Virus record (IMG/VR): IMGVR_UViG_3300042881_001950
Location: 1-23,856 of that record
Source: a virus
Strand: one strand, 5' to 3'
DNA length: 23,856 nucleotides
Of this stretch, positions 7,031-20,524 are shown one piece after another; within the stretch, counting starts at the first letter, position 1; every line of letters starts with the position of its first letter. The position numbers were made by a program, and so were the translations under genes. A model generated the notes under the pieces. It worked only from the letters and a program-made list of their open reading frames with translations, did no database searches and was not told the DNA's origin.

Positions 7031-8463
7031 TGGCCTTCCTCGACCTGTTCCGCGGCCGCACGCAGCCCCGCCAGCCGGTGGCGCCGGTGGCCCGCGCCCG
7101 GTTTGAGGCGGCCGAGCGGGGCGACGACTACAAGCACTGGGCCGGGGCCGACGCCTTCAGTGCCGACGCGGCGCTGTCGCCCGAAAAGCGCCGCATGATG
7201 CGGAACCGCGCCCGCCATGAGCGGGTGAACAACTCCTACCTGGCCGGCATCTCGGCCACGCTGGCCGGCGACCTGATCGGCACCGGCCCCCGCCTGCAGC
7301 TCGACATCGGCGACGTGGACGCGGCCCGCACCGTCGAGCGAGCGTTCTACGACTGGGGAACCCTGATCGACCTGCCGGCCAAGCTGCGGACGATGCGGGA
7401 GGCGATCGTCAGCGACGGCGAGGCCTTCGCCATGATGATCAACAACGGCCGCCTGCCGGGCGTGCAGCTCGACCTCCGCTTGGTCGAGGCCGAGATGGTG
7501 GCCACGCCGACCGAGCTGATGGCCCAGTCGATCACCGTCGAGGGGAACACCGTCGACGGGATGGAGTTCGACGCCACCGGCAACGTCACCGCCTACCAGG
7601 TGTTGAACTACCACCCGGGCAGCAACTACCGGATCAATACGCTCGAGTTCCGCCGAGTGCCTGCCGCGGCGATGATCCACTGGTTCCGCCGGGTGCGGCC
7701 CGGCCAGAACCGCGGCTACCCCGAAGTTGCCCCGGCCCTGCGGCTGTTTGGCCAACTGCGCCGCTACACGGAGGCCGTGATCGCGGCCGCTGAGACGGCC
7801 GCCGACTTCGCGGCGTTCATCCACAGCAACAGCCCGGCCGCGGAGGTCGACGAGGTCGACAGCTTCGCCGAGTTGGAAATCCGCAAGCGGTCGCTGGTCA
7901 CGCTGCCCGAAGGCTGGGACATCTCGCAGCTGAAGGCCGAGCAGCCGACCAGCACCTACAAGGATTTCAAGCGCGAGATCCTCAACGAAATCGCCCGTTG
8001 CCTGCAGCTGCCGTACAACGTCGCCGCGCTGGATTCGTCGTCGTACAACTACGCTTCCGGCCGCATGGACCACCAGGTCTATGCCATGAACCAGCGGGTC
8101 GACCGCGATCACCTGGAGCGGATCTGCCTCGACCGGGTGCTGGCGGCCTGGGTGAACGAGGCCAGCCTGGCCGGCGTGATCCCCGAGGGCCTGCCGCCGT
8201 TCAGCGAGTGGAACTGGGCCTGGGTGTGGGACGGGAAAGATCACGTCGACCCCGGCAAAGAAGCCAACGCCTGCGAGACCCGGCTGCGGACGCTGACCAC
8301 GACCCTGGCCAGCGAGTACGCCCGCCAGGGCAAGCGGTGGGACGTCGAGCTGCGGCAGATTGCCGCCGAGCGGGCGCTGATGGACGAGTTGGGCCTGTCG
8401 ATGGCACCGGCCGGCCTGCCGGCCCCGACACCGCTCGACGAGCCGGAGGAGGTGCCGCAGTGA
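7030..8463 (+). CDS. Phage portal protein, lambda family, 477 aa
   Basis: This forms the dodecameric ring at the capsid vertex through which DNA enters and leaves. Recognisable features of the lambda-type (Phage_portal_2) family are an N-terminal RARFEAAERGDDYKHW, then RNRARHERVNNSYLAGISATLAGDLIGTGPRLQ. A central EFRRVPAAAMIHWFRRVRPGQNRGYPEVAPAL follows, then FKREILNEIARCLQLPYNVAALDSSSYNYASGRMDHQ. The length of 477 residues is normal. The ATG at 7030 overlaps the preceding stop by one base. The gene continues into the downstream capsid genes through two short overlaps. Confidence 0.93.
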   Translation: MAFLDLFRGRTQPRQPVAPVARARFEAAERGDDYKHWAGADAFSADAALSPEKRRMMRNRARHERVNNSYLAGISATLAGDLIGTGPRLQLDIGDVDAARTVERAFYDWGTLIDLPAKLRTMREAIVSDGEAFAMMINNGRLPGVQLDLRLVEAEMVATPTELMAQSITVEGNTVDGMEFDATGNVTAYQVLNYHPGSNYRINTLEFRRVPAAAMIHWFRRVRPGQNRGYPEVAPALRLFGQLRRYTEAVIAAAETAADFAAFIHSNSPAAEVDEVDSFAELEIRKRSLVTLPEGWDISQLKAEQPTSTYKDFKREILNEIARCLQLPYNVAALDSSSYNYASGRMDHQVYAMNQRVDRDHLERICLDRVLAAWVNEASLAGVIPEGLPPFSEWNWAWVWDGKDHVDPGKEANACETRLRTLTTTLASEYARQGKRWDVELRQIAAERALMDELGLSMAPAGLPAPTPLDEPEEVPQ

Positions 8464-8528
8464 TCGAGGACTGGGAAGGCTTCGACGACGACGCCACCGA
8501 CATCATCGGGGAGACCATCTGGCTATGA
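8460..8528 (+). CDS. 22-codon ORF between portal and capsid genes
   Basis: A GTG at 8460 overlaps the portal TGA (GTGA), and the stop at 8526-8528 overlaps the capsid-protein ATG (ATGA). The peptide is acidic (MIEDWEGFDDDATDIIGETIWL) with an amphipathic end. Perfect coupling on both sides is the main evidence that it is translated. It may be a genuine micro-protein, a translational-coupling leader for the capsid gene, or the remnant of a longer head protein. No family is recognised. Confidence 0.4.
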   Translation: MIEDWEGFDDDATDIIGETIWL

Positions 8529-10366
8529 GCGACAAACTTGCGTTCTCGAGCGGTGTGGAGTTTCTGCAGGCTGCCGACGGAGAAGCGGCGGCCGGCCCGC
8601 GGAAGTTCCGCATCGTCGCCTACACCGGCGCGCCGATCCGCCAGTCGTGGTCACGGGAGCCCGTGATCATCGACATGGCCGGCATGACGCTGCCGCAGAC
8701 CGTGCCGATCGTGGTCGGCCACGACTACGCCATCGGGTCGATCCTCGGCCAGGGTACGCCGAGCGTGCAGGGCGGGCAGCTGATCGTCGAGGGCGAGATC
8801 CTCGCCGACAACGACAACGCTCGCCAGGTGCTCGCCCTCGCGGCCGCCGGCTACCAGTGGCAGGCCAGCGTCGGTGCCGACGTCGGCCGCCACCTGCGGT
8901 TCGGCGAAGACCAGATCACCACCGTCAACGGGCAGACCGTCCAAGGGCCTGTCCGCGTCGTACGCGCCTCCACGCTGCGGGAGACGTCTTTCGTCACGTT
9001 AGGGGCCGACCGCAGCACGGCCGTTTCCATCGCCGCAGAAGCGGCAGAGGAGAGCACCATGGCGGCTGACGCCACCACCAAGCCCACGGACGAGGTCGTC
9101 GAGACCGCGATCGTGGCGGCCACGGCGGAGGTCGCCGTGGAGCCCGTTTCTACCCCCGCCGTTTCGGCCGACACCACCGCCCTGGTGGCCCAGCTCGAGA
9201 CGCTGACCAAGAAAGTCGAAAACATGGAGAAGCTCCAGCTGACCCGTGACGAGCGGCCGGCGGCCCCCGCGGCCCACGTCGTGACCCACGCGGCCCCGAC
9301 GGCCGAGGTGATCGAGGCCTCGTTCGCCCTCCAGGGCAACCTGCCGGGCATCGAGCAGAAGTACGACGCCAAGGTGCTCGAGGCGGCCCACAAGGCCCGC
9401 CGCGAGATCAGCCTCGGCGAGGTGCTCATTCAGGCGGCCGTGGCGAACGGCTACGACGGTCCCCGTCGCGTGAACGCTTCCACCCTTCGGCCGATCCTGG
9501 CCGCGGCGTGGGCGACCCACTCGATCTCGGGCATCCTGTCGAGCACGGTCAACAAGTTCCTCCTGGCCGGCTTCGACAGCGTCGAGTCGGCCTGGCGGTC
9601 GATCTCGTCGGTCCGCAGCGTCAACGACTTCAAGGCGATCACGCAGTACCGCCTCAACGGCGCTTTCTCTTTTGAGAAGGTGGCCAACGGCGGCGAGCTG
9701 AAGAACGCCGCGGCGTCGGACGAGAGCCGGACGATCAGTGCGGAAACCTACGGGATCATGACCTCGGTCACCCGTACCGACCTGATCAACGACGACCTCG
9801 GGGCGCTCACGGCGGTGCCGCAGCGGATCGGCCGCGGCGGTGCCCTTAAGCTCAACGACGTGTTCTGGGCCGAGTTCCTCAACGACTCGACCTTCTTCAC
9901 GACGGCCAAGGGCAACAAGAAGACCAGCGCCACGGCCCTCGGCCTGGCCGGTCTGAAGGAGGCCCTGGCCCTCTACCGGAAGCTAAAGGACAGCGACGGG
10001 AAGCCGATGGCGACCCAGCCGCGTGTCCTGCTGACGCCGGTCGACCTCGAGATCACCGCGGCGGAGTTGATGAACTCCATCCAGATCTCATCCGGTGCGA
10101 CCAGCGGCCAGCCGTCGACGAACGTGTTCGCCGGTCGGTACGAGGTGGTCAGCTCGACCTACCTGACCGACACGGCCGACTACTACCTCCTCGCCTCGCC
10201 GGCCGATCTGCCGGTGATGGAGGTGGCGTTCTTGAACGGCGTCCAGAGCCCGATCGTGGAGACGGCCGAGGCCGATTTCAACGTGCTGGGCGTGCAGATG
10301 CGCGGCTACTTCGACTTCGGCTGTGCCAAGGCCGAGGACAAGGCCGGCGTGAAGATGGACGTCTGA
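8525..10366 (+). CDS. Fused prohead protease - scaffold - major capsid protein, 613 aa
   Basis: Three parts are visible. Residues 1-170 are an HK97/U35-type prohead protease: PIVVGHDYAIG (His66), QWQASVGADVG (Ser115) and LRETSFVTLGAD (Glu153) fit its His-Ser-Glu active-site order. Residues about 175-260 are an Ala/Thr/Val-rich linker with a coiled coil (LVAQLETLTKKVENMEKLQ), the scaffold or delta-domain position. Residues about 265-613 are a HK97-fold capsid protein of Mu gpT-like type (SGILSSTVNKFLLAGF, VNDFKAITQYRL, YGIMTSVTRTDLINDDLGAL, NVLGVQMRGYFDFG). Self-cleavage should free the mature coat. The start is coupled to the preceding short ORF. An internal start at 9059 could give the coat without protease. 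Confidence 0.9.
   Translation: MSDKLAFSSGVEFLQAADGEAAAGPRKFRIVAYTGAPIRQSWSREPVIIDMAGMTLPQTVPIVVGHDYAIGSILGQGTPSVQGGQLIVEGEILADNDNARQVLALAAAGYQWQASVGADVGRHLRFGEDQITTVNGQTVQGPVRVVRASTLRETSFVTLGADRSTAVSIAAEAAEESTMAADATTKPTDEVVETAIVAATAEVAVEPVSTPAVSADTTALVAQLETLTKKVENMEKLQLTRDERPAAPAAHVVTHAAPTAEVIEASFALQGNLPGIEQKYDAKVLEAAHKARREISLGEVLIQAAVANGYDGPRRVNASTLRPILAAAWATHSISGILSSTVNKFLLAGFDSVESAWRSISSVRSVNDFKAITQYRLNGAFSFEKVANGGELKNAAASDESRTISAETYGIMTSVTRTDLINDDLGALTAVPQRIGRGGALKLNDVFWAEFLNDSTFFTTAKGNKKTSATALGLAGLKEALALYRKLKDSDGKPMATQPRVLLTPVDLEITAAELMNSIQISSGATSGQPSTNVFAGRYEVVSSTYLTDTADYYLLASPADLPVMEVAFLNGVQSPIVETAEADFNVLGVQMRGYFDFGCAKAEDKAGVKMDV
9046..9061 (+). promoter_or_regulatory. Internal ribosome binding site and in-frame ATG within the capsid gene
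   Basis: AGAGGAGAG at 9046-9054 lies 4-5 bases upstream of an ATG at 9059-9061, which is in frame (codon 179) and falls exactly at the junction of the protease domain and the scaffold/coat part. Translation from here would give a 435-residue protease-free scaffold-capsid protein. This is analogous to lambda Nu3, which starts inside gene C. Use of the site is inferred. Confidence 0.5.
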
Positions 10367-10857: not shown

Positions 10858-11280
10858 ATGGCCGACATGCTTTCCGCCGGGGCTGCCTGGCTCACCGACC
10901 GGCTGCGTGCGAGCGCTGCCGCCACGGTGGCCTACGTCCGCGGTGCGAACACGGCCACGGTGCCGGCCACCATTGGCTCGTCGACGTTTGAGGCCCAGAA
11001 CGGCTCCGGCGTCATCGAGCAATGGGAGAGCCGGGACTTCATCATCAAAACCGCCGAGTTGCCCTACGGCGAGCCGCAGCGGGGCGACAAGATCTACGAG
11101 ACGCTGGGCGGGGCCGCCAACGTCTACGAGGTGTCGGCCCCTCGAGGTGTGCCGCTGTTCCGCTACGGCGATGCGTTCCAGACCTGCGTCCGGGTTCACA
11201 CCAAGCGGGTCGACGTCGACGTCCAGTACCTGGTCACCGAGCAGGGTGACGAAATCGTGGTACCGCTGCAGGTGAACTGA
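10858..11280 (+). CDS. Head-tail connector / head completion protein, 140 aa
   Basis: A GGAGGTGA ribosome site ends three bases before the ATG at 10858. After an N-terminal helix (MLSAGAAWLTDRLRASAA) the rest is beta-rich: ATVPATIGSSTFE, DFIIKTAELPYGEPQRGDKIYE, NVYEVSAPRGVPLFRYGD, FQTCVRVHTKR. This resembles head-tail stopper proteins of the lambda gpFII / phage head-tail joining type, which bind the portal ring and receive the tail. The position at the end of the head module agrees. The family call is from fold-like pattern and gene order. Its stop overlaps the first fibre gene (TGATG). Confidence 0.62.
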   Translation: MADMLSAGAAWLTDRLRASAAATVAYVRGANTATVPATIGSSTFEAQNGSGVIEQWESRDFIIKTAELPYGEPQRGDKIYETLGGAANVYEVSAPRGVPLFRYGDAFQTCVRVHTKRVDVDVQYLVTEQGDEIVVPLQVN

Positions 11281-11582
11281 TGCCAATCCAGAAGCGCGTC
11301 AGCGAGCTGCCGGCCGTGACAGGCATCACGGGCACCGACATGCTGATCATGTCGAGCAGCTCGGCCACCAAGCGGGTCACGTTCTCGCAGATCACGACAT
11401 ACCTGCAATCCGCAGGGCTCGTCGGTGCCACCGGCCCGGCCGGCAGCGGCGAGGCCTACCAGTCGGCGACGGCGCCGGCTTCGGCCACGGCAGGGGCGAC
11501 CTGGTTCGACACGACGACAGGCCAGTATTTCGTCCGCTACGCCGGGGCGTGGGTCGAGGTCGGCGGTAAGCACTACGCATAG
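11280..11582 (+). CDS. Short collagen-like fibre protein, 100 aa
   Basis: The ATG at 11280 shares its A with the connector stop. Residues 1-45 (MPIQKRVSELPAVTGITGTDMLIMSS, RVTFSQITTYL) are the conserved N-terminus of many phage fibre proteins that attach to a virion. A single collagen-like GATGPAGSG follows at about 49-57. The C-terminal part holds the sequence TAGATWFDTTTGQYFVRYAGAWVEVG, split here as TAGATWFDTT and TGQYFVRYAGAWVEVG. That module is repeated twice in the next protein. It is probably a homotrimeric virion appendage or an adaptor for the longer fibre. Confidence 0.68.
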   Translation: MPIQKRVSELPAVTGITGTDMLIMSSSSATKRVTFSQITTYLQSAGLVGATGPAGSGEAYQSATAPASATAGATWFDTTTGQYFVRYAGAWVEVGGKHYA

Positions 11583-11589
11583 GTGACCA

Positions 11590-12483
11590 ATGCCCTTCTA
11601 CCAACTCCCCTCCGGTGCCTCGCCCGTGCTGGCTGGCAGCGCGCCGCCTACCGGCGGGATCGGGCAGAACGGTGACCTGTTCATCGACACTTCGAACAAA
11701 TTCCTGTACGGCCCCAAGGCGGCCGGCAGTTGGCCCAGCGGAATCAACCTGTCGCTCGGGCCGACCGGGGCGACGTCGACGGTGACGGGACCGACGGGGC
11801 CAGCGGTGACAGGGCCGACGGGCGGGATCGCGTTTACCGTCGGCCCGACTGCGCCGACGGCCCCAGACTTGACGGTGGCCGGGGCGGTCTGGCTCGACCA
11901 AACGACCGGACGGTATTTCGTCCGTTACCAGACGCAGTTCATCGAAATCGGCGTCCAGGGCGAGCGCGGCCCGACGGGCAACACCGGGCCACAGTCGACG
12001 GTCACCGGACCGACGGGCGCCCAATCGACGGTCACAGGTCCGACGGGCGGCGTGGCGTTCGCGGCCACCGGCCCGACCGCCCCCAACCTGACCGCGGCCG
12101 GGAGCGTGTGGCTCGACACGGCAAGCGGAAAGTATTTCGTCCGCTACGACGGCCAGTTCATCGAGATCGGCGTTCAGGGTGAGCGCGGCCCCACCGGCCC
12201 TGCCGCCACCCGCGGGGCCAACATACAAACGCTGGCGACTGGCATCACGCTGACGGAAAACTCCGCCCGCTACCAGTTCCTGACCGCCACCGGCAGCTCG
12301 CAGACGATCACGCTGCCGACCGGCATGGGGTCGGGCCTGGACTATGTGATCAAGGAAGTGGATTCGTTTCTCGGGCTTGAGGTGAAGACTCCCGCCGCGG
12401 TCACGGTCGTCACGGTCTACAGCACGCCGCAGCTCATCGTCTGGGACGGCTCGTCGTGGCGCGTCATTTCGTATTCCTCGTAG
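11590..12483 (+). CDS. Collagen-like (Gly-Pro-Thr-Gly) fibre protein with duplicated modules, 297 aa
   Basis: AGGTGA precedes the ATG at 11590. Residues 1-50 are a globular head (GQNGDLFIDTSNKFLYGPKAAGSWP). Residues 57-80, 126-155 and 199-204 carry Gly-x-Thr collagen-like triplets such as GPTGATSTVTGPTGPAVTGP. Between them lie two copies (about 82-128 and 158-202) of a module with the core AG-WLD-TG-YFVRY-QFIEIGVQGERGPTG. The last 90 residues are a beta-rich tip (LATGITLTENSARYQFLTATG ... VWDGSSWRVISYSS in parts). Collagen triplets imply a trimeric stalk. The Thr in the Gly-Pro-Thr triplets is a potential O-glycosylation site. It probably acts as a virion fibre. Confidence 0.72.
   Translation: MPFYQLPSGASPVLAGSAPPTGGIGQNGDLFIDTSNKFLYGPKAAGSWPSGINLSLGPTGATSTVTGPTGPAVTGPTGGIAFTVGPTAPTAPDLTVAGAVWLDQTTGRYFVRYQTQFIEIGVQGERGPTGNTGPQSTVTGPTGAQSTVTGPTGGVAFAATGPTAPNLTAAGSVWLDTASGKYFVRYDGQFIEIGVQGERGPTGPAATRGANIQTLATGITLTENSARYQFLTATGSSQTITLPTGMGSGLDYVIKEVDSFLGLEVKTPAAVTVVTVYSTPQLIVWDGSSWRVISYSS
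11830..12198 (+). repeat. Tandem coding repeat in the fibre gene
   Basis: Two protein-level repeats of about 45-50 codons (about 11830-11979 and 12046-12198) share YFVRY, QFIEIG and VQGERGPTG, and their DNA is closely similar (for example AGTATTTCGTCCG versus GGTATTTCGTCCG). They are separated by collagen-like triplets. A third copy of the module is in the preceding gene at about 11475-11570. Confidence 0.75.
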
Positions 12484-12497
12484 TGCAAGGGTGAACC

Positions 12498-13049
12498 ATG
12501 TCTCTCAGCTTTCCCACCGGACCGACGAACGGCCAGCAGGTCACCACGGGTGGCCGGACGTATCAGTGGAGCGGCCAGGCCTGGACGCTGGTGGGCAGCG
12601 GGATCGCCGGGCCTACGGGCGTTACCGGACCGACGGGCAGCACCGGCGCGGCCAGCACGGTGACCGGACCGACGGGCAGCGCGGGCGCTGCCGGAGCAGC
12701 TGGTGCCACAGGCGCGTCCTACACGAACGTGGTGACCACGCCGGCCGTCTTGACCGCCAACACGACGGTCACCGGATACAACCCGGGGGCCGGCGACATC
12801 TACCGCCTGGCGGTGACCGGCACGACGGGCGTCAATCTGCGGGGCCTCGGGATTACTGGCGTCGACGGTGACGCCAAGCTGCTGATTAACGTGGGGGCCA
12901 CGGCCCCGATCACGCTCCAGCACAACACCGGCAGCAACGCCAACGCCTATTTTTCCGTGCCGTGGGCTGGCGACTACGTCATGGACAGGGCTGGCGGTGC
13001 CGCCCTAGTCGTCTACGACGCCACGTCGGCCGTCTGGCGGGTCGTCTGA
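12498..13049 (+). CDS. Collagen-like virion/fibre protein, 183 aa
   Basis: AGGGTGA lies four bases upstream of the ATG at 12498. The N-terminus (MSLSFPTGPTNGQQVTTGG, YQWSGQAWTLVG) is a common small module of phage tail and fibre proteins. Residues 36-75 are collagen-like (GPTGVTGPTGSTGAAS, GPTGSAGAAGAAGATG). Residues 75-183 are a beta-rich head, with a Gly-rich surface and a C-terminal VVYDATSAVWRVV that resembles the end of the neighbouring fibre. It probably forms a trimer with a short stalk, as an alternative or additional appendage on the same virion. The function is inferred from architecture. Confidence 0.68.
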   Translation: MSLSFPTGPTNGQQVTTGGRTYQWSGQAWTLVGSGIAGPTGVTGPTGSTGAASTVTGPTGSAGAAGAAGATGASYTNVVTTPAVLTANTTVTGYNPGAGDIYRLAVTGTTGVNLRGLGITGVDGDAKLLINVGATAPITLQHNTGSNANAYFSVPWAGDYVMDRAGGAALVVYDATSAVWRVV

Positions 13050-13061
13050 CCGGCATTTCAC

Positions 13062-13082
13062 TACCCTACGGACACCCTGCGA
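13062..13082 (+). promoter_or_regulatory. Weak TACCCT element upstream of the lectin-like gene
   Basis: The 33-base gap before the ATG at 13083 has no Shine-Dalgarno. TACCCT at 13062-13067 resembles the TACCGT of the two larger repeated elements (6821-6826 and 19463-19468). Without the 16-mer found there, this is only a weak candidate. Confidence 0.2.
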
Positions 13083-13835
13083 ATGTGTGCGCTTGATACT
13101 CGGCTGTTCCGACCCACGGCTTCTGGCTTCAACCCGGCCAGCATCTCGGGTATTGCCAACTGGTGGGATGCGAACGACGCGAGCACGGTGACGCTGAACG
13201 CCGGGGCCGTCGAAACCTGGACGAGCAAGGCGGGGCTGAAGAGTGCGGCCACGCAGACCACGGCCAACAACCGGCCCGTGACCACCACGGTGAACGGTAA
13301 GACCGCGTTGTCGTTTGACGGCAGCAACGACGGCTTGAACTTCACAGGAACCAGCCGAACAGACGAGACATGGATCATTGCCGCAGCTCAGACGGCAGAC
13401 CAATCTGGTCAGCGGCAAATGCTGTCAGATGGCGGCGCCGGCACGGGCATGAGTGCCACCAAGGCGGCGGTAAAGTTCTTAGAAGTTGCGTTTGGTGGAT
13501 TTACCGAAGGGACAAACCGGTTGCGTGTGCAATACTCAGCAACTGCATCAGCCCTCATGGGGCCAGGCGTGTTCACCTGCGTTCGGTCGGCTGCTGGCGG
13601 CGGTTTCGTGTTTATCGACGGAACCCAGCGAACAGGTGCCGTGAGCCCGTTTGCCTCGTCGTTCAGCACAAGCAACGCTGACACGATGTCACGCATCGGC
13701 TACTACTCTTCCTCACTGTTCCAGTTCCAAGGCTGGATAGGTGAAATCCTGTGCTACGACCGCCCGCTGTCCGACTCTGAGCGGCTCAAGGTCGAACGCT
13801 ACTTGGGCAAGAAGTGGGGGATTACGGTCGCATGA
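13083..13835 (+). CDS. LamG/concanavalin-like lectin domain protein, 250 aa
   Basis: The core follows the phage 'LamG-like jelly-roll' pattern: ISGIANWWDANDASTVTL near residues 20-37, ETWTSKAG, a KTALSFDGSNDGLNF strand near 72-86, then a terminal WIGEILCYDRPLSDSERLKVERYLGKKWGI near 220-248. Proteins of this kind bind glycans and often form tips of phage fibres or surface-binding decorations. The central 13330-13750 DNA is less GC-rich than either end and uses different codons, which suggests replacement of the binding domain by recombination. The ATG at 13083 lacks a Shine-Dalgarno. The stop overlaps the next start. Receptor binding is a reasonable inference. Confidence 0.75.
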   Translation: MCALDTRLFRPTASGFNPASISGIANWWDANDASTVTLNAGAVETWTSKAGLKSAATQTTANNRPVTTTVNGKTALSFDGSNDGLNFTGTSRTDETWIIAAAQTADQSGQRQMLSDGGAGTGMSATKAAVKFLEVAFGGFTEGTNRLRVQYSATASALMGPGVFTCVRSAAGGGFVFIDGTQRTGAVSPFASSFSTSNADTMSRIGYYSSSLFQFQGWIGEILCYDRPLSDSERLKVERYLGKKWGITVA

Positions 13836-14137
13836 AGTATTACCGCACCGCCGACGCCGCGCTCTACGAGTCGATTCGCCTGCAACTGGACGCCGCGTGG
13901 GGCCACCCGACGCCGGACGGTCGCACGCTCACCTGCTTCGACCCGGCCGCCGTCGCCCCGCGTGACGCTACCGGCCGACTGCTGTTGGCCGTGAATGACG
14001 AGTTCATCACTTGGGAGCCTGCCGCCACGCTGCTACCGCAACTGCTCGCCAGCGGTGCGGTGGAGGAGATTGATGCGGAGGCGTACCAGCCAGTGCCGCC
14101 GGTTTTGCTGGGCAGTTCTAGTCATCAGGACCGCTAG
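13832..14137 (+). CDS. Hypothetical small protein, 101 aa
   Basis: The ATG at 13832 overlaps the lectin-protein stop as ATGA. It begins MKYYRTADAALYESIRLQLDAAWGHP. The middle (LLLAVNDEFITWEPAATLLPQLLASGAVEEIDAEAY) suggests a small alpha/beta fold. The coupling to the lectin-like gene suggests it assists that protein, for example as a fibre assembly chaperone, which phages commonly encode just after a fibre gene. That role rests only on position and size. No family is recognised. Confidence 0.6.
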   Translation: MKYYRTADAALYESIRLQLDAAWGHPTPDGRTLTCFDPAAVAPRDATGRLLLAVNDEFITWEPAATLLPQLLASGAVEEIDAEAYQPVPPVLLGSSSHQDR

Positions 14138-14182
14138 CCGACCCCCTCCGGCCCGCTGTCGGCCCCTGCGAAACTGCGGGGC
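14137..14182 (+). promoter_or_regulatory. Intergenic inverted repeat before the sugar cassette
   Basis: GCCGAC (14137-14142) pairs with GTCGGC (14158-14163) around a 15-base loop that carries CCCCTCCGG. This partly resembles the CCAGACCCCCTGCGGG block seen at 6788 and 19429, sharing GACCCCCT. The TACCGT element is absent. It may be a regulatory relative of those elements or only a modest terminator for the fibre genes. Confidence 0.3.
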
Positions 14183-15253
14183 ATGATCGACAGCCTGTGC
14201 CACCTGGCGGCCCACGCCTACCACTGCGGCGAGATCGAGGCCGGCCGCCGCGCCTGCGAGCGAATCCTGTCGACGCCGGACGTGTCGGCCGAGGTCGCCA
14301 TGGTCACGCGGGCCAACCGGATCGTCTACACGCCGCTCCTGGCCGAGTTGGCGAGCCCGACGTTTCACCGGATCGACATTGCCCCGGCCCACCAGGGCTG
14401 GTCGCTTTTCAACCCCACGGTGATCGTCCACGGCGGCGACCTGGTCGCCATCGTCCGCTCGTCGAACTACGAGATCGTTGACGGCCGATACGTCATGCCC
14501 GAGGCCGACGGCCAGACGATCCGCACCCAGAACCTGCTGGTCCGGTTCGACGCCGAGCTGCGGCCCGTGTCCTGCCGGCCGCTCGAGGTGGCCTACCCAA
14601 AAACGGAATACCCGGTCGACGGGCTGGAGGACTGCCGGCTGCGGGCCGTGGGCACCGGTCTGGGGATTTCGGCCACCGTCCGCAACGTGGCCCCGTTCGA
14701 CGGACGTTGCCGGATGGCGGCCGGCACCATCGACATAGCCACGGCCACGGTCACCGACCTCCGGGTGCTCGACGGGATCACCACGCAGGAACACGAAAAG
14801 AACTGGATGCCGATCCTCGGCCGTGGCGGGTGGGTGTACGCCTGCCGGCACGGCGGCCACGTCGTGACCATCGACCAAGACCACGACCTGCCCGGCGGCT
14901 GGCAGATCGTGCGGCGGAGCCCGGCCCCGGTAATCGCCAGCGAGTTCCGCGGTGGCTCGCAGCTGGTGCCGTTCCGGGGCGGGTGGCTGGCCGTGATTCA
15001 CGAGGTGGCCCACACCCCGCGGGGGCGGTCCTACGAACACCGGTTCGTCTGGTTTGACGAGCGGCTGGCGCTGGCCCGCATGTCGCAGCCGTTCTGGTTT
15101 AAGGAGCCGCGGGCCATTGAGTTTGCCGCCGGGCTGGCGATCCTGCTTGGCCGCGTGATCGTGTCGTTTGGCGTGCGGGACGCCGAGGCCTGGCTGGTCG
15201 AGCTGCCGGAGGAGGAAGCGTGGCAACTCTTGTCACCGGTTACGTCCGGCTGA
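14183..15253 (+). CDS. GH130-like five-bladed propeller protein with TPR-like N-terminus, 356 aa
   Basis: Residues 1-55 (AHAYHCGEIEAGRRACERILSTPDV) look like a TPR remnant of the type attached to glycan enzymes. The rest matches the GH130/beta-fructosidase-like propeller pattern. FNPTVIVHGGDLVAIVRSSNYE at about 76-97 is the first blade, DGLEDCRLRAVGTG at about 146-159 corresponds to the family's Glu-Asp-Pro-Arg signature with Cys in place of Pro, EKNWMP is at 205-210, EFRGGSQLVPFRGGWLAVIHE at about 254-274 and YEHRFVWFD at about 284-292. GH130 members are glycoside phosphorylases or hydrolases on mannosides and related sugars. Reaction and substrate here are unknown. It heads the sugar cassette. 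Confidence 0.68.
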   Translation: MIDSLCHLAAHAYHCGEIEAGRRACERILSTPDVSAEVAMVTRANRIVYTPLLAELASPTFHRIDIAPAHQGWSLFNPTVIVHGGDLVAIVRSSNYEIVDGRYVMPEADGQTIRTQNLLVRFDAELRPVSCRPLEVAYPKTEYPVDGLEDCRLRAVGTGLGISATVRNVAPFDGRCRMAAGTIDIATATVTDLRVLDGITTQEHEKNWMPILGRGGWVYACRHGGHVVTIDQDHDLPGGWQIVRRSPAPVIASEFRGGSQLVPFRGGWLAVIHEVAHTPRGRSYEHRFVWFDERLALARMSQPFWFKEPRAIEFAAGLAILLGRVIVSFGVRDAEAWLVELPEEEAWQLLSPVTSG

Positions 15254-15927
15254 ACGCCGGCCACCGGCCGCACGCCCGCTACCTCGAGCTGGGCCGGCGG
15301 CTCATTGGCCTGGCCCTGCCCACCGTCTGCTTCTACGACGGGGCAACCAACGACGTGATTCCGACGCCGCGGACGTTCGTCCGCCCGGCCGGGCTGGCCC
15401 ATTGTTGGATGACCGACTTTGCGGCTGGCTGCCGGCCCCCGCCCGGGTCGCCCATGAAGGACACGACGGCCTATACCGTGGTTCAGCACCAGAAGACCGC
15501 GTGGTTGGCCGAGGCGGCCCGCATGACCGGCGACCATGTCGTGTGGGTGGACTTTGGGATCTTTCACCTGAAGGCCCCGATCACCGACCGCATGATCCGC
15601 GAGTTTTTCGCCCGGGTCGAGGCGGCCCCGCCGGACCGGATCACGATCGCCGGGATCTGGCCGATGGTCAATCGGCCGCTGATCGACTGGTCGAAGCCGG
15701 CATGGTACGTCGCCGGGGGCGTGGTGGTCGTCCCGCCCGGCCTGGCCGAGTGGTTCCACGACACGACGGTCAAGTACGCCACGCTGCAAATGCAGTTCAG
15801 CGGCCAGACCACCTGGGAGGTGAACACCTGGTCCGCCATGCTTCGCGACCACCGGGACAAGTTCCGGGTCTACGCCGCGGACCACGACGAGACCCTGTTC
15901 ACCGGCTACGGAGGCCCGAGCCCATGA
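15220..15927 (+). CDS. HtrL/YibB-like glycosyltransferase candidate A, 235 aa
   Basis: The GTG at 15220 follows GGAGGAGGAA (15208-15217) and overlaps the GH130-like gene by 34 bases. It opens ATLVTGYVRLNAG and continues TVCFYDGATN. The central HVVWVDFGIFHL at about 106-117 resembles the 'W-x-Asp-x-Gly' motif of HtrL/YibB-type glycosyltransferases, in which Asp/Gly lie in the nucleotide-sugar site. It ends ADHDETLFTGYGG. Alignment by eye with the next protein shows the same landmarks at the same residue numbers, so the two are tandem paralogues. The likely action is cytoplasmic sugar transfer in phage-directed glycan synthesis. Family assignment is moderate confidence. Confidence 0.55.
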   Translation: MATLVTGYVRLNAGHRPHARYLELGRRLIGLALPTVCFYDGATNDVIPTPRTFVRPAGLAHCWMTDFAAGCRPPPGSPMKDTTAYTVVQHQKTAWLAEAARMTGDHVVWVDFGIFHLKAPITDRMIREFFARVEAAPPDRITIAGIWPMVNRPLIDWSKPAWYVAGGVVVVPPGLAEWFHDTTVKYATLQMQFSGQTTWEVNTWSAMLRDHRDKFRVYAADHDETLFTGYGGPSP

Positions 15928-16619
15928 GAGCGATGGCAGTCACCGGGTTCGTCCACGCCCCGTTCCCGGCCAAGCACCTGACCCCCGGCAAGTGTGCCGA
16001 TTTGGGTGGCCGGCTGAAATCAGCGTTGGGCAACAAACTCCACGCCTTCGACGCTGGCTGGCGGTTGGAGGACTGCTGGGCCTACAAGCTGCTGGCGGAT
16101 AACCCCGGCCTGCTGCCGTCGTGTGCCCACCCGCCGGGCGACCGGTTCCACACGGCCGCCGACATGACCCGGTCGAACATTGTCCTTCTGCAACGCTACT
16201 GGTGGATGAGGCAGGCCGCCGAGTGGTATCCAGACGTCGACGTGTTCGCGTGGATCGAATACACGGTCCTGAAGCAGACCAACGTCACCGAGGACGTCCT
16301 GCGGGCGTTCGTGGACGACCTCGAGCGGCGGCCCTGTGACGCGATCACGCTGCCCGGCTGCTGGCCCAAGGGCGTGATTAACGACGCCGAGGCCCACTGG
16401 CGGTTTGTCGGGTCGTGCTGGATCTGCCCCCGGCAGCTGGCCGCCCCGCTGTTCGACGCTGTCGAGACCGTGGCCAGCCTGCGGGCCAGGCTCACCGGCC
16501 GGCTGTCGTGGGACATGAACACCATGGCCTACGTCGAGCTGCTGGATGCCCTGCCCGTGCGGTGGTATCCGGCCAACCATGACCAGACCCAGTTCACCAA
16601 CTACCGGGGGCTCCCGTGA
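15924..16619 (+). CDS. HtrL/YibB-like glycosyltransferase candidate B (paralogue of A), 231 aa
   Basis: I choose the ATG at 15924, which overlaps the previous stop (ATGA). The opening AVTGFVHAP matches the neighbour's LVTGYVRL. DVFAWIEYTVLK at 106-117 sits where the neighbour has HVVWVDFGIFHL, but the Asp-Phe-Gly is replaced by Glu-Tyr-Thr. DAITLPGCWPKG matches RITIAGIWPMV, WDMNTMAYVEL matches WEVNTWSAML, and ANHDQTQFTNYRG matches ADHDETLFTGYGG. The duplication is therefore old, with conserved fold. Loss of the DxG-like site suggests a different donor or a non-catalytic partner. The stop overlaps the next GTG (GTGA). Confidence 0.55.
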   Translation: MRAMAVTGFVHAPFPAKHLTPGKCADLGGRLKSALGNKLHAFDAGWRLEDCWAYKLLADNPGLLPSCAHPPGDRFHTAADMTRSNIVLLQRYWWMRQAAEWYPDVDVFAWIEYTVLKQTNVTEDVLRAFVDDLERRPCDAITLPGCWPKGVINDAEAHWRFVGSCWICPRQLAAPLFDAVETVASLRARLTGRLSWDMNTMAYVELLDALPVRWYPANHDQTQFTNYRGLP

Positions 16620-17239
16620 CGCTACTCTGCGACCTGGCCGACAAGCACATGACCGACAAGGGTGGCACGTCCACCGTGTACGGCGGCGTTCCCGGTGACA
16701 CCTGCCACAACTACACGCCCGCGTACCACGCCATGTTCGGCGATCGCCGCGAGTCAGTGCGGCGGGTGCTTGAGGTGGGCGTGAACGCTGGCTCGTCGCT
16801 CCGAATGTGGGAGGAGTATTTCCCGGCCGCCGAGGTGATCGGCCTCGACATTCGGCCGGACGTCCTGTTCGCGGCCGGGCGGATCCGGTGCTACCAGGCC
16901 GACCAGGGCGTCCGGCAGTCGCTCCAGGCGGCCGTGGCCGCGGCTGGGGGCGGGCCGTTCGACCTGATCATCGACGACGGGTCGCACCTCGAGGCCCATC
17001 AGATCGTGACCGCCGAGACGCTGCTGCCGCTGTTGGCCCCGGGCGGCGTGTACGTCATCGAAGACATCGACATCGACTGCCGGCCCGAGCTGCTCGCGGA
17101 CCGGATCACCGCCCCGGAGGGCCTCGCGTGGGAGGCCGTGCCGACGGGCGTCCACATCGGCAAGGCCCGGTGCCGGCCGGGCTGCGAGTTCTGCGGTGGC
17201 ACGGCCGGGGAGACCCTGATCGTCTGGAGGCGGGTGTGA
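16616..17239 (+). CDS. Class I SAM-dependent sugar O-methyltransferase (MycE/TylF-like), 207 aa
   Basis: A GTG at 16616 overlaps the previous stop. The N-terminal DKHMTDKGGTSTVYGG..HNYTPAYHAMFG is the 'DK...H-x-Y...Y...F' lid of MycE/TylF-type sugar methyltransferases. The SAM-binding loop is LEVGVNAGSSLRMWEEYFP at about 52-70, the acidic strand end is GLDI at 76-79, and the metal-binding LIIDDGSHLEAHQI is at about 117-130. GGVYVIEDID at about 144-153 completes the fold. Family members transfer methyl groups to hydroxyls of deoxysugars in antibiotics and to surface polysaccharides. The length matches. It most likely methylates the sugar built by the adjacent glycosyltransferases. A CRPGCEFCGG near the end could bind a metal. 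Confidence 0.8.
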   Translation: MTLLCDLADKHMTDKGGTSTVYGGVPGDTCHNYTPAYHAMFGDRRESVRRVLEVGVNAGSSLRMWEEYFPAAEVIGLDIRPDVLFAAGRIRCYQADQGVRQSLQAAVAAAGGGPFDLIIDDGSHLEAHQIVTAETLLPLLAPGGVYVIEDIDIDCRPELLADRITAPEGLAWEAVPTGVHIGKARCRPGCEFCGGTAGETLIVWRRV

Positions 17240-18279
17240 AAATCGGCGTTTACGCACTGAGCAAGAACGAGGAAAAGCACGCCTTGGCGTGGGCCGAGTC
17301 GTGCCAGGACGCAGACGTGCGGGTGGTGACCGACACCGGAAGCACCGACGGCACCGTCCAGCGGCTGACCCTAGCCGGCGTGACCGTGGCCACCGGCTAC
17401 GTCTGCCCGTGGCGGTGGGACGAGGCCCACAACCTGTCGCTCCACCACCTGCCGCCGGACGTCGACGTGGCGATCCGTTTGGACCTCGACGAGCGGCTCC
17501 AGCCCGGCTGGCGGGAGGCTGTCGAGCGGGCGTGGGTCGACGGCACCAACAACCTGCGGTATCGGTACGTTTGGTCGTGGGCACCCGACGGCCGGCCGGG
17601 CCTCGTCTTCTACTGCGACCGGGTCCACGCCCGGGCCGGCTTCCGGTGGACCGGGGCGACCCACGAGGGGCTGGTCTGCTGGAAGGGGGACCGACGAATC
17701 CGGGTGGCCGAGGGGCTGGAAATCCACCACCACCGCGACCACGGCAAGCGGCACGCCACGGACCTCGAGCTGCTCCGCGTGGCGGTGGCCGAGGCCCCGC
17801 ACGATGCCCGGGCGCGGTGGTATCTGGCCCGCGAGTGCGACTACCAAAACCTGCCCGAGGCGGCCGCCCAGTGGGCCGCATACCTACGGATGCCGGATGG
17901 CAGCGTCACCGAGCGGGCCTACGCCCTGCGGGCGCTCGCCAGGGTCACGGGTGAAGAACTGCACCTCCACCGGGCCGCCCGCGAGGCGACCTGGGAGCCG
18001 GACGCCTGGGAGCATTTGGCGCAGGCCCACTGCAAGCGGCGGGAGTGGCGCGAGACGCTGGCGTTTGCCCAGGTCGCCCTCCAGGCCGACGGCGAGCCGA
18101 CCCACGCCACCGATCCCAACGCCAAGTGCCGGGCGGCCGACATCGCCGCCATGGCGGCCTGGGAGCTGGGGCTGCGTCCACAGGCCCTCCAGTTGGCCGA
18201 GGACGCCGTGGCACGATCACCGCTAGACGACCGCCTGCGGGCCAATCTGGAGGCCATGCGGCGGTTGGTGGAGGCCTAG
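17236..18279 (+). CDS. Family-2-like glycosyltransferase with TPR-like C-terminus, 347 aa
   Basis: The GTG at 17236 overlaps the methyltransferase stop (GTGA). Residues 1-190 are a GT-A domain: KIGVYALSKNEEKHALAW, a TDTGSTDGT nucleotide-binding loop at about 32-40, and RLDLDERLQPGW with a Asp-x-Asp motif at 83-85 that would bind the metal and UDP/GDP/dTDP-sugar. HHHRDHGKRH follows near 175. Residues 195-347 are repeated helix pairs (ARWYLARECDYQ, ERAYALRALARV, WEHLAQAHCKRREW, AWELGLRPQALQLAEDAV) typical of TPR units that dock protein substrates. This architecture occurs in enzymes that glycosylate proteins. It closes the sugar cassette. Acceptor and donor are unknown. Confidence 0.78.
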   Translation: MKIGVYALSKNEEKHALAWAESCQDADVRVVTDTGSTDGTVQRLTLAGVTVATGYVCPWRWDEAHNLSLHHLPPDVDVAIRLDLDERLQPGWREAVERAWVDGTNNLRYRYVWSWAPDGRPGLVFYCDRVHARAGFRWTGATHEGLVCWKGDRRIRVAEGLEIHHHRDHGKRHATDLELLRVAVAEAPHDARARWYLARECDYQNLPEAAAQWAAYLRMPDGSVTERAYALRALARVTGEELHLHRAAREATWEPDAWEHLAQAHCKRREWRETLAFAQVALQADGEPTHATDPNAKCRAADIAAMAAWELGLRPQALQLAEDAVARSPLDDRLRANLEAMRRLVEA

Positions 18280-18280
18280 C

Positions 18281-18721
18281 GTGAGCACCGCCCGCGAGAT
18301 CGCCGACGCCCTGGCCGACAGCCTGGACGCCTACACGTTCACCGCCGTGACGCCCTCGGTCGTGCGGCAGAACTGGCCCAGCTACGACATCGAGGACATG
18401 GACGACCCCGTGGTGGCGGTCATGCCCGGGGCGATCGAGACCACCCGGGCCGACCGCGTCCATTGGCAGTACGACTACGCGATCATCGTGTTCGTCGGCC
18501 GCCACGCCCCGACCGAGGCCCTAGCCGACGACACGCTGGCCCTGGCCGAGGAGATGGTGGACGCGATCCGCCAGCACGACTGGGACGAGGCGGTAACCTG
18601 GCCAAGCGGCGTGACCAGCCCCATGGAGGTCGAGGTGACGCTGAACCCCGACGAGGGGCTCCAGGAGCGGAACGTTTGGCGGGCCGTGATCACGGCCACC
18701 TATCGCGTCCACCGGACGTAG
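18281..18721 (+). CDS. Tail terminator / neck protein candidate, 146 aa
   Basis: A GTG at 18281 lies one base after the glycosyltransferase stop. The sequence begins STAREIADALADSLDAYTF, followed by beta-strand pairs (DDPVVAVMPGAIETTRADR, YDYAIIVFVGRHA), a helix (LALAEEMVDAIRQHDWDE) and a strand-rich end (RNVWRAVITATYRVHR). This fits the small alpha/beta fold of phage tail terminators, such as lambda gpU-type and phage 'minor tail protein' families, which cap the tail before it joins the head. The call uses fold pattern and position at the start of the tail module. Confidence 0.6.
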   Translation: MSTAREIADALADSLDAYTFTAVTPSVVRQNWPSYDIEDMDDPVVAVMPGAIETTRADRVHWQYDYAIIVFVGRHAPTEALADDTLALAEEMVDAIRQHDWDEAVTWPSGVTSPMEVEVTLNPDEGLQERNVWRAVITATYRVHRT

Positions 18722-19503: not shown

Positions 19504-19824
19504 ATGTCAGTCACGCTCGGCAAAGACGTAACGATCACGGGCCTAAACAACGCCCGCACCGTCACCGTTAACAACTCCGCCGCGGAGGTCGACGTCACCA
19601 AGCTCGGTGACACCAGCCGCAAGTTCAAAAAGGCCATGATCGAGCAAACGCTCGAGGTGGAGTGCGTTGACGACCCGGGCGTGAACGTGGGCGACGTGTT
19701 CACACTGTCTGGTTCCAGCACCGGAAACGTCAAGTACGTCGTGACCAACGTGGCCGAGGCCGACCCCATCGACGGGATCAAGACGTTTACCGTCTCGGCC
19801 AGTCGCAACCATTCGCAGTCCTAA
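19504..19824 (+). CDS. Tail-tube-like protein, paralogue 1, 106 aa
   Basis: It opens MSVTLGKDVTITGLNNARTVTVNNSAAEVDVT. It ends DPIDGIKTFTVSASR. Both ends match the two genes that follow. The beta-rich pattern and the conserved opening 'TLGKD' are consistent with a phage tail-tube/major tail protein. It lies after the terminator/completion genes and before the chaperone, the place of lambda V. The middle is more diverged (KFKKAMIEQTLEVECVDD). A regulatory element lies directly upstream. Whether all three paralogues sit in the tail tube is unknown. Confidence 0.62.
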   Translation: MSVTLGKDVTITGLNNARTVTVNNSAAEVDVTKLGDTSRKFKKAMIEQTLEVECVDDPGVNVGDVFTLSGSSTGNVKYVVTNVAEADPIDGIKTFTVSASRNHSQS

Positions 19825-19842
19825 TCAGGGAGACCCGCACGC

Positions 19843-20163
19843 ATGGCCATTACGCTCGGGAAAGACGGTTCGGCCCCTCCGTTTGGAAGCCAGGTCATTT
19901 CGGCAACCTACACGGAAGAGGTCGAGGTCATTGACGTCACCAACCGCACCAACGCGGGCGGTTCGTCCGGGAACCCCGGCTACAGGGCCTACAGGTCAGG
20001 CCTGACCAGCAAGCTGTGGGAAATCGAGTGCCACAACGCCACCGGCCTGGTGACAGCGATCGCGACCAACACGCCGACAAGCAACTTCATCGTGATGAGC
20101 GTCACGGAAAACATCAGCATCGACGGAGCGGTGACCTACACCGTGACCGCCCGGGAGAGCTGA
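19843..20163 (+). CDS. Tail-tube-like protein, paralogue 2, 106 aa
   Basis: A GGGAGA ribosome site lies upstream, and the ATG at 19843 starts MAITLGKDGSAPPFGSQVISATYTEEVEVIDVT. It ends NISIDGAVTYTVTARES, closely like the 'SIDGVVTFQVEA' end of paralogue 3. The middle contains a Gly-rich loop (NRTNAGGSSGNPGYRAYRSG). It is a second tandem copy of a beta-rich virion protein, same length as paralogue 1. The likely role is a tail-tube or tail-decoration subunit. Confidence 0.62.
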   Translation: MAITLGKDGSAPPFGSQVISATYTEEVEVIDVTNRTNAGGSSGNPGYRAYRSGLTSKLWEIECHNATGLVTAIATNTPTSNFIVMSVTENISIDGAVTYTVTARES

Positions 20164-20167
20164 CCCC

Positions 20168-20524
20168 GTGGCGATCACGCTGGGAAAGGACGCCACGGTT
20201 TCGGTCGGTTCGTCCGTAGTCGGCGTCCGCAACGTCACATTCAGCAGCTCGGCCCGGACGATCGACATTGAGGAATACGCGAGCCGGTTCGCTTCGGTCT
20301 ACCAGACCGGGCGGGACGCCTCGCTGTCGATGGAGGTCAACGACGACGCTTCAATGTCTGGGCTGTTTGCCTCGCTCAACAACGGGACCGAGGTCACCGT
20401 TTCGGGCAGCCCCGGCGGCTGGTCGTTCCCGGCGGTGATCACGTCGATCAGTTCTAACGCCTCGATCGACGGCGTGGTGACGTTTCAGGTTGAGGCAAAG
20501 ATCACCAGGAGCGGTCTACGATGA
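20168..20524 (+). CDS. Tail-tube-like protein, paralogue 3, 118 aa
   Basis: A GTG at 20168, four bases after the preceding stop, starts MAITLGKDATVSVGSSVVGVRNVTFSSSARTIDIEEYASRF, here split as MAITLGKDATVSVGSSVVG and RNVTFSSSARTIDIEEYASR. 'DIEEYAS' and 'SMEVNDDAS' are what tail-tube proteins usually show. It ends SNASIDGVVTFQVEAKITR. This copy most resembles a canonical tail tube. Its stop overlaps the chaperone ATG. Of the three, it is my best candidate for the main tube subunit. Confidence 0.66.
   Translation: MAITLGKDATVSVGSSVVGVRNVTFSSSARTIDIEEYASRFASVYQTGRDASLSMEVNDDASMSGLFASLNNGTEVTVSGSPGGWSFPAVITSISSNASIDGVVTFQVEAKITRSGLR

Follow-up and report, generated by a model that had tools for sequence, protein, structure and literature searches.

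A predicted modular glycosylation cassette adjoining threonine-rich collagen-like fiber genes in phages and rhizobia

What do five overlapping genes for sugar-modifying enzymes do between the head and tail genes of a phage, next to its collagen-like fibers? The question is raised by IMG/VR record IMGVR_UViG_3300042881_001950, a virus record of 23.9 kb. It was analyzed from position 1 to 23,856 (the window). The five genes (the cassette, 14183 to 18279) encode a GH130-fold protein, two paralogous predicted glycosyltransferases (Htr1 and Htr2), a sugar O-methyltransferase, and a GT2 glycosyltransferase with a TPR-like tail. Our reading, with a probability of roughly 60%, is that the cassette is a modular locus of soluble, late-expressed enzymes that glycosylate the collagen-like fiber (or head-fiber) proteins of the phage itself. 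The enzymes probably coat the fibers with sugar, because unrelated viruses and root-nodule bacteria have the pairing as well.

The gene order was read from a codon-scored gene model and Pfam matches. From 5' to 3', the window encodes an MT-A70 methylase, terminase gpA, a lambda-type portal, a fused protease/capsid protein, two small head genes, the fiber region (11280 to 14137), the cassette, and tail genes with a tape measure. All genes are on the plus strand. Adjoining cassette genes overlap by 4 to 34 bases. The cassette follows a small open reading frame (ORF) at a distance of 45 bases, and 1 base separates the stop codon of the cassette from the downstream structural gene. Because of these overlaps and small gaps on one strand, we infer from the layout that the cassette region is transcribed as a single late operon. 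An earlier note on this DNA had listed five overlapping genes for a GH130-like protein, two paralogs, a methyltransferase, and a GT2. The gene set and order are real, and its coordinates for the fiber region and the cassette are correct.

The same note had counted three collagen-like proteins with GPTG triplets. Two of them are clear. GPT2 (11590 to 12483) is a GPTG-rich collagen-like fiber protein whose homologs precede the cassette throughout the clade. It contains 9 GPT and 8 GxTG motifs against about 1 expected, a count reached by 0 of 5,000 shuffles. It also contains two copies of the module WLDxxxGxYFVRYxxxxIEIGVQ. GPT3 (12498 to 13049) is a collagen-like protein with matches to PHROG tail-collar and collagen-like minor-tail families (phrog_3449, E = 1e-7). 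It contains 4 GPT and 8 GxTG motifs, again reached by 0 of 5,000 shuffles. Its match to Pfam Collagen (E = 8e-4) is under the curated cut-off. A search with PF01391 alone understates the repeats, which are subthreshold in the window. GPT1 (11280 to 11582) is marginal. It is a short fiber-like protein with the module GATWFDTTTGQYFVRYAGAWVEVG and a marginal collagen-like stretch, GLVGATGPA. It contains no GPT and a single run of 3 to 4 triplets (shuffle P of about 0.01). Its N-terminal type, MPxQKRVxxLPAxTGVTG, is also found on longer GPT-rich relatives (L047 and L073, for example). The next gene (13083 to 13835) encodes a LamG-like protein that had been taken for a lectin. It matches phrog_10356, "virion structural protein" (E = 3e-18), and the LamG label received no match in the Pfam search.

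Collagen genes in relatives were counted by a six-frame recount with controls inside and outside the interval. A codon-usage gene finder drops GxT-rich ORFs and gave 19/47. A search for the pattern (GxT)6 misses several of these phages, because threonine (Thr) sits in only some triplets. Between the head-completion gene and GH130, a GxTG-rich ORF was present in all 41 relatives with an intact interval (40 of 41 with slightly different interval bounds). These ORFs contain up to 74 GxTG motifs and a run of 211 triplets. No such ORF was found on the reverse strand or outside the interval of the same contigs (0/41), the outside being 2.5 times longer. About half of the triplets have Thr at Y and hardly any have it at X, a bias that is partly by construction since the ORFs were picked on GxTG. 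In the window proteins, uninterrupted Gly-X-Y runs are 3 to 6 triplets long, with interruptions between them; the runs reach 25 to 211 triplets in relatives and up to 498 in rhizobia. The joint occurrence of GPT fibers and cassette in other phages, which the earlier note had named as its check, is borne out in near relatives and echoed in unrelated phages and rhizobia.

In viruses with an SU10-like portal (L343, L344, L346, and L347), a GT2-TPR-GH130 fusion is accompanied by two collagen-like proteins, a sulfotransferase, and an epimerase (GDP-mannose-dehydratase-like in L343, L346, and L347). They also encode Htr genes, or Htr genes with a MycE-type methyltransferase (MycE-type in two of L343, L346, and L347). 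In L343, the sulfotransferase gene (5409 to 6218; PF13469, E = 1e-13) adjoins the two collagen-like genes and a GT2-GH130-Htr set. This suggests that the glycans of the L343 phage group may be sulfated. Other large phages encode GT2 homologs close to GPTG fibers. One of them (L284) encodes three GPTG-rich proteins, a methyltransferase, a tryptophan halogenase, and a GT2. The halogenase gene (8400 to 9986; PF04820, E = 9e-105) is located between the genes for the GPTG-rich proteins, a Methyltransf_24 gene, and the GT2 gene. In Actinomycetia phage DSL-LC01, a glycosyltransferase with a halogenase is annotated under the same GT2 match. Outside the clade, a GxTG-rich ORF lies within 10 kb in 20 of 33 viral loci, a count without a phage-wide baseline for comparison.

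The pairing also occurs in bacteria. All 20 Mesorhizobium and Bradyrhizobium loci encode Gly-X-Thr collagen in the flank of GH130. The more complete loci contain a DUF4347-collagen protein (PF01391, E = 7e-153) divergent from a GT2-TPR-GH130 fusion, often with a GT2 homolog. Some also encode MycE-like methyltransferases. In L212 (2300 to 6847) and its Mesorhizobium relatives, glycosyltransferase genes adjoin the genes for giant DUF4347-collagen proteins, in which Gly-Ala/Ser/Asp-Thr triplets number in the hundreds. A literature search found no paper on the pairing of a Mesorhizobium collagen-like protein with a glycosyltransferase. Among Mesorhizobium species genomes, the pattern (GxT)12 was found in 11 of 12 with GH130 and in 8 of 49 without it (P = 1.9e-6). 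The Bradyrhizobium counts were 5 of 5 and 1 of 94 (P = 8e-8). Both P values are optimistic because species within a genus are related. An acidimicrobial contig (L226) encodes an Htr-like segment before GH130 in one ORF, adjoining a GT2 and a collagen protein. The Htr-like segment was recognized by eye in the translated sequence and is unscored.

GH130 and GT2 hold the outer positions in each of 90 related viral contigs, a set that includes overlapping or near-identical members and does not represent 90 independent events. The inner genes vary. The inner set is a single Methyltransf_24-type methyltransferase in 40 contigs, plus 1 with a probably spurious extra ORF. It is Htr-Htr-MycE in 16, Htr with another GT2 in 15, Htr-Htr in 4, and a Methyltransf_24-type methyltransferase with FkbM in 4. 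Rarer inner sets consist of other methyltransferases and transferases. L015 also contains a Methyltransf_24 domain within the GT2 ORF. Phages of the L087 type encode a GDP-mannose-dehydratase/epimerase-like gene directly upstream of GH130. The slot between head genes and tail genes is constant in relatives. The Htr-Htr-MycE trio is merely one of several interchangeable middle modules. To judge from these sequences, a fixed core with a variable decorating part is typical of a locus that builds glycans.

The constant 5' gene of the cassette (14183 to 15253) encodes a GH130-fold protein with a helical N-terminal extension. Its AlphaFold (AF2) model has a pLDDT (predicted local distance difference test) score of 92.7. 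GH130 mannoside enzymes account for all of the best 35 Foldseek matches in the PDB (E down to 1.3e-11), with Leishmania MPT-2 (GT108; E = 6e-7) coming next; TM-scores are moderate, at about 0.55. The matches identify the five-bladed propeller of GH130/GT108, and the GH130 call made from the sequence holds. By hhalign to PF04041 members from a family search (Prob 91.5, E = 9e-7), N77, E149-D150, K206, and D333 fall on GH130 motifs. The 32 phage GH130-fold sequences show no variation at any of these five residues. Asn28, Asp92, and Asp281 of Teth514_1788 recognize mannose at subsite -1 (PMC4264767). N77, D150, and D333 match this Asn/Asp/Asp site, a correspondence by motif and not by direct alignment. 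No curated PF04041 match was obtained in the window, and the top bacterial relative scores 21.9 bits against a cut-off of 26. The phosphorylases of GH130/GT108 are inverting enzymes that work on beta-mannosides with mannose-1-phosphate (PMC8950772). By this analogy, the protein is predicted to be beta-mannosyl phosphorylase/transferase-like, and a mannosyl-type step is a reasonable guess. Compared with these enzymes, it shares the propeller and the aligned Asn, Glu-Asp, and Asp of the mannose site; it differs in lying under PF04041 detection, in its extra N-terminal helical region, and in its fusion or pairing with GT2-TPR. For GH130 and Htr, PDB searches by sequence alone returned mainly designed- and repeat-protein noise, and structure prediction resolved both.

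Htr1 (15220 to 15927) overlaps the GH130 gene and is a predicted GT-A-fold glycosyltransferase. Its AF2 model has a pLDDT of 95.2, and its Foldseek neighbors are XXYLT1 and GT6 enzymes (E = 1e-6 to 1e-5). Htr2 (15924 to 16619) is a paralog with 29% identity in the alignment. Htr1 contains a WVDFG motif, and Htr2 has WIEYT at the equivalent place, so that E-Y-T replaces D-F-G and the Asp is lost. Htr2 may act differently or be inactive. The two may form an active and a divergent subunit, because the same motif split is seen again in relatives. The earlier note had called them HtrL-like paralogs. They are paralogs with a GT-A fold, and the family name is weakly supported. Pfam HtrL_YibB (PF09612) gave E = 0.05 to 0.18 for the window pair, below the cut-off. 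None of 21 members had a curated PF09612 match (best E = 0.046), and Htr1 of the window scored 11.8 bits against a cut-off of 24.1. We rejected HtrL as a family assignment.

The next gene (16616 to 17239) encodes the catalytic domain of a MycE/TylE-like sugar O-methyltransferase with a Pfam Methyltransf_24 match. Its closest solved structures are MycE (3ssm, E = 2.5e-26) and demethylmacrocin O-methyltransferase (8ia9, E = 1e-24). Both of these enzymes methylate a sugar hydroxyl. The homology covers the catalytic domain. The full MycE/TylE architecture of about 400 amino acids was not found in this protein of 207, which aligned to only residues 198 to 325 of 419 in 3ssm. The MycE-type assignment proposed earlier is supported at this level, as is that of the last gene as a GT2 with a TPR-like tail. 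This constant 3' gene (17236 to 18279) encodes a GT2 glycosyltransferase with a TPR-like C-terminal half. It matches phrog_13126, a beta-1,4-glycosyltransferase (E = 2e-67). Its PDB profile matches are TPR proteins, Glyco_trans_2-like 7msk (E = 8e-5), GmaR, and SunS (E = 0.3). It has the GT2 domain and TPR region of the protein/peptide glycosyltransferases SunS and GmaR, whereas its profile similarity to this type is weak (E from 8e-5 for 7msk to 0.3 for SunS). No clear transmembrane segment was found in any of the five enzymes; the stretch of highest hydrophobicity lies in the GH130-fold protein and is modeled as propeller strands. Annotated phages add little to the comparison, because Htr1 had no tblastn matches in INPHARED and GT2 had only eight distant records there.

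A possible order of steps can be proposed. The TPR-type GT2 would recognize an extended GxT polypeptide and put on or lengthen the first sugar. The GH130-fold enzyme would add a sugar, beta-mannosyl-type by analogy. The swappable middle genes (GT-A-fold Htr, other GT2s, and class I/FkbM methyltransferases) would provide further sugars and O-methylation. Each phage lineage would obtain its own glycan. The acceptor is most likely Thr at the Y position of Gly-X-Thr triplets. The sequences show the gene content and order, the predicted folds, the conserved residues, the swapping, and the linkage to collagen-like genes; from these we infer the catalysis, the donor, the acceptor residue, the sugar with its linkage and methylation, and the order of steps. 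Benefits may include fiber protection, avoidance of recognition, and adhesion, and the virion would be protected or retargeted.

Glycosylation of the fibers is supported by the modularity of the 90 loci, the linkage in 40 to 41 of 41 relatives, the recurrence in SU10-like viruses and L284, and the rhizobial association. It is also supported by the L226 ORF, the GmaR/SunS-type profile matches, and the lack of transmembrane segments. The earlier note had proposed much the same, with methylated sugar chains on Thr of the fibers, and is partly supported. A broader proposal, to which we give even odds, is a widespread prokaryotic system for Thr glycosylation of GxT collagen. It would join a GH130-fold transferase and a TPR-type GT2 in unrelated phages and alphaproteobacteria, with swapping of methyltransferases and transferases in phages.

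Several observations weigh against fiber glycosylation. The collagen repeats of the window's own proteins are short. The homology of the GH130-fold protein to mannosyl enzymes is remote. No sugar-nucleotide synthesis gene was found in the window. Collagen-like fibers are common in phages, and the pairing counts have no phage-wide baseline. Synteny within the clade could reflect shared descent inside a structural module. Among bacterial loci, 20 of 46 have GH130 without collagen in the examined stretch; they are mainly Actinomycetota, and several are on short contigs. Among 30 more distant phage loci whose upstream sequence is long enough, six (L258, L264, L267, L270, L331, and L335) contain the cassette without a GxTG protein, and the L331 fiber retains only GPTGPAGAA. 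The earlier note had held that cassettes without a nearby GPT protein would refute it. Such cassettes exist among these distant loci; 40 to 41 of 41 near relatives have the pair. Collagen does not accompany the enzymes everywhere, and because of the six loci, collagen is not the sole possible acceptor.

The same six cassettes favor the strongest alternative, that the enzymes modify another virion protein (capsid, tail tube, or noncollagen fiber) and the collagen fibers are mere neighbors. There is precedent in glycosylated mycobacteriophages, where capsid and tail proteins are modified (as cited in PMC13313380 and PMC11256854). We consider this unlikely, given that the collagen linkage recurs in unrelated viruses and in rhizobia, and no virion genes were seen alongside the rhizobial loci. 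Less likely still, the enzymes change the host surface polysaccharide, leading to seroconversion or superinfection exclusion. GT2 and methyltransferase genes also occur in polysaccharide loci, and phrog_13126 is filed under moron/host takeover. However, the cassette is embedded amid structural genes with overlapping starts, encodes no transmembrane or lipid-carrier glycosyltransferase, and keeps its head-tail position in relatives. A degradative or lectin role of the GH130-fold protein toward host glycans, in place of one in glycan synthesis, is improbable. GH130 includes mannoside hydrolases as well as phosphorylases, and Glu149-Asp150 fits the GH130_NC pattern; yet the protein is fused to GT2-TPR in rhizobia and L343, follows the Htr-like segment in the L226 ORF, and sits in a run of transferase genes without a fiber fusion. 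Phage glycosyltransferases can glycosylate DNA bases, but this role is very improbable here, with no base-modification genes adjoining the cassette, its location among structural genes, and the same set adjoining collagen in bacteria.

Decoration of the phage's own fibers has partial parallels. Bacillus BclA is a Gly-Pro-Thr exosporium collagen with rhamnose-rich, O-methylated glycans (PMC6222408). Its Thr-rich Gly-X-Thr repeats resemble the likely acceptor here, of which the runs are short and interrupted in the window and longer in relatives, and a methylated sugar would be expected here from the methyltransferase. BclA is a spore protein, whereas the system described here has GH130-fold, TPR-GT2, and Htr enzymes and occurs in viruses and rhizobia. 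In mycobacteriophages, phage glycosyltransferases decorate capsid and tail proteins of the virion (Freeman et al. 2023, as cited in PMC13313380 and PMC11256854), and methyltransferase companions are suspected there too. In the relative Maravista, the glycosyltransferase genes lie near the genome end, whereas the cassette lies between head and tail genes beside collagen-like fibers. Mimivirus L230, a collagen lysyl hydroxylase/glucosyltransferase (PMC9614988), also adds sugar to the virus's own collagen-like proteins. It differs in its hydroxylysine target, its unrelated bifunctional enzyme, and its eukaryotic host. E. coli prophage collagens are rich in GPK, GPQ, and GPA and not GxT, and are unglycosylated as recombinant products (PMC3368898). 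This fits the Thr-rich type being the modified one, without testing it. These prophage collagens were all that a search for glycosylated Thr-rich phage collagen-like tail fibers returned. The earlier note knew of no such combination in a phage. Glycosylation of phage virions and Thr-glycosylated collagen (BclA) are each known, and no description of the coupled modular locus was found in the searched literature.

Other features of the window are as follows. A small ORF at the junction of fibers and cassette (13832 to 14137) is supported by its coding score and is kept in some relatives. The structural gene downstream of the cassette (18281 to 18721) has a tail-terminator-like position, by position only, and borders the cassette in relatives too. 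Three tandem paralogs of about 106 to 118 amino acids (19504 to 20524) are in a tail-tube-like position, and a single profile gathered 226 copies of them in 175 contigs. The MT-A70 adenine methyltransferase gene (1342 to 2520; PF05063, E = 2.5e-25) lies near the left fragment end, and the N-terminal half of its product appears ParB-like by eye.

If the reading is correct, phages of uncultivated hosts encode a coupled, modular system for virion decoration. It would also offer a genetic way to study how glycosylated collagen is made in bacteria and phages. The hypothesis could be put to the test in culturable bacteria, because Mesorhizobium and Bradyrhizobium have the same cassette. The fixed structural slot with swapped sugar-modifying genes suggests that glycan identity is a fast-evolving trait of the virion surface.

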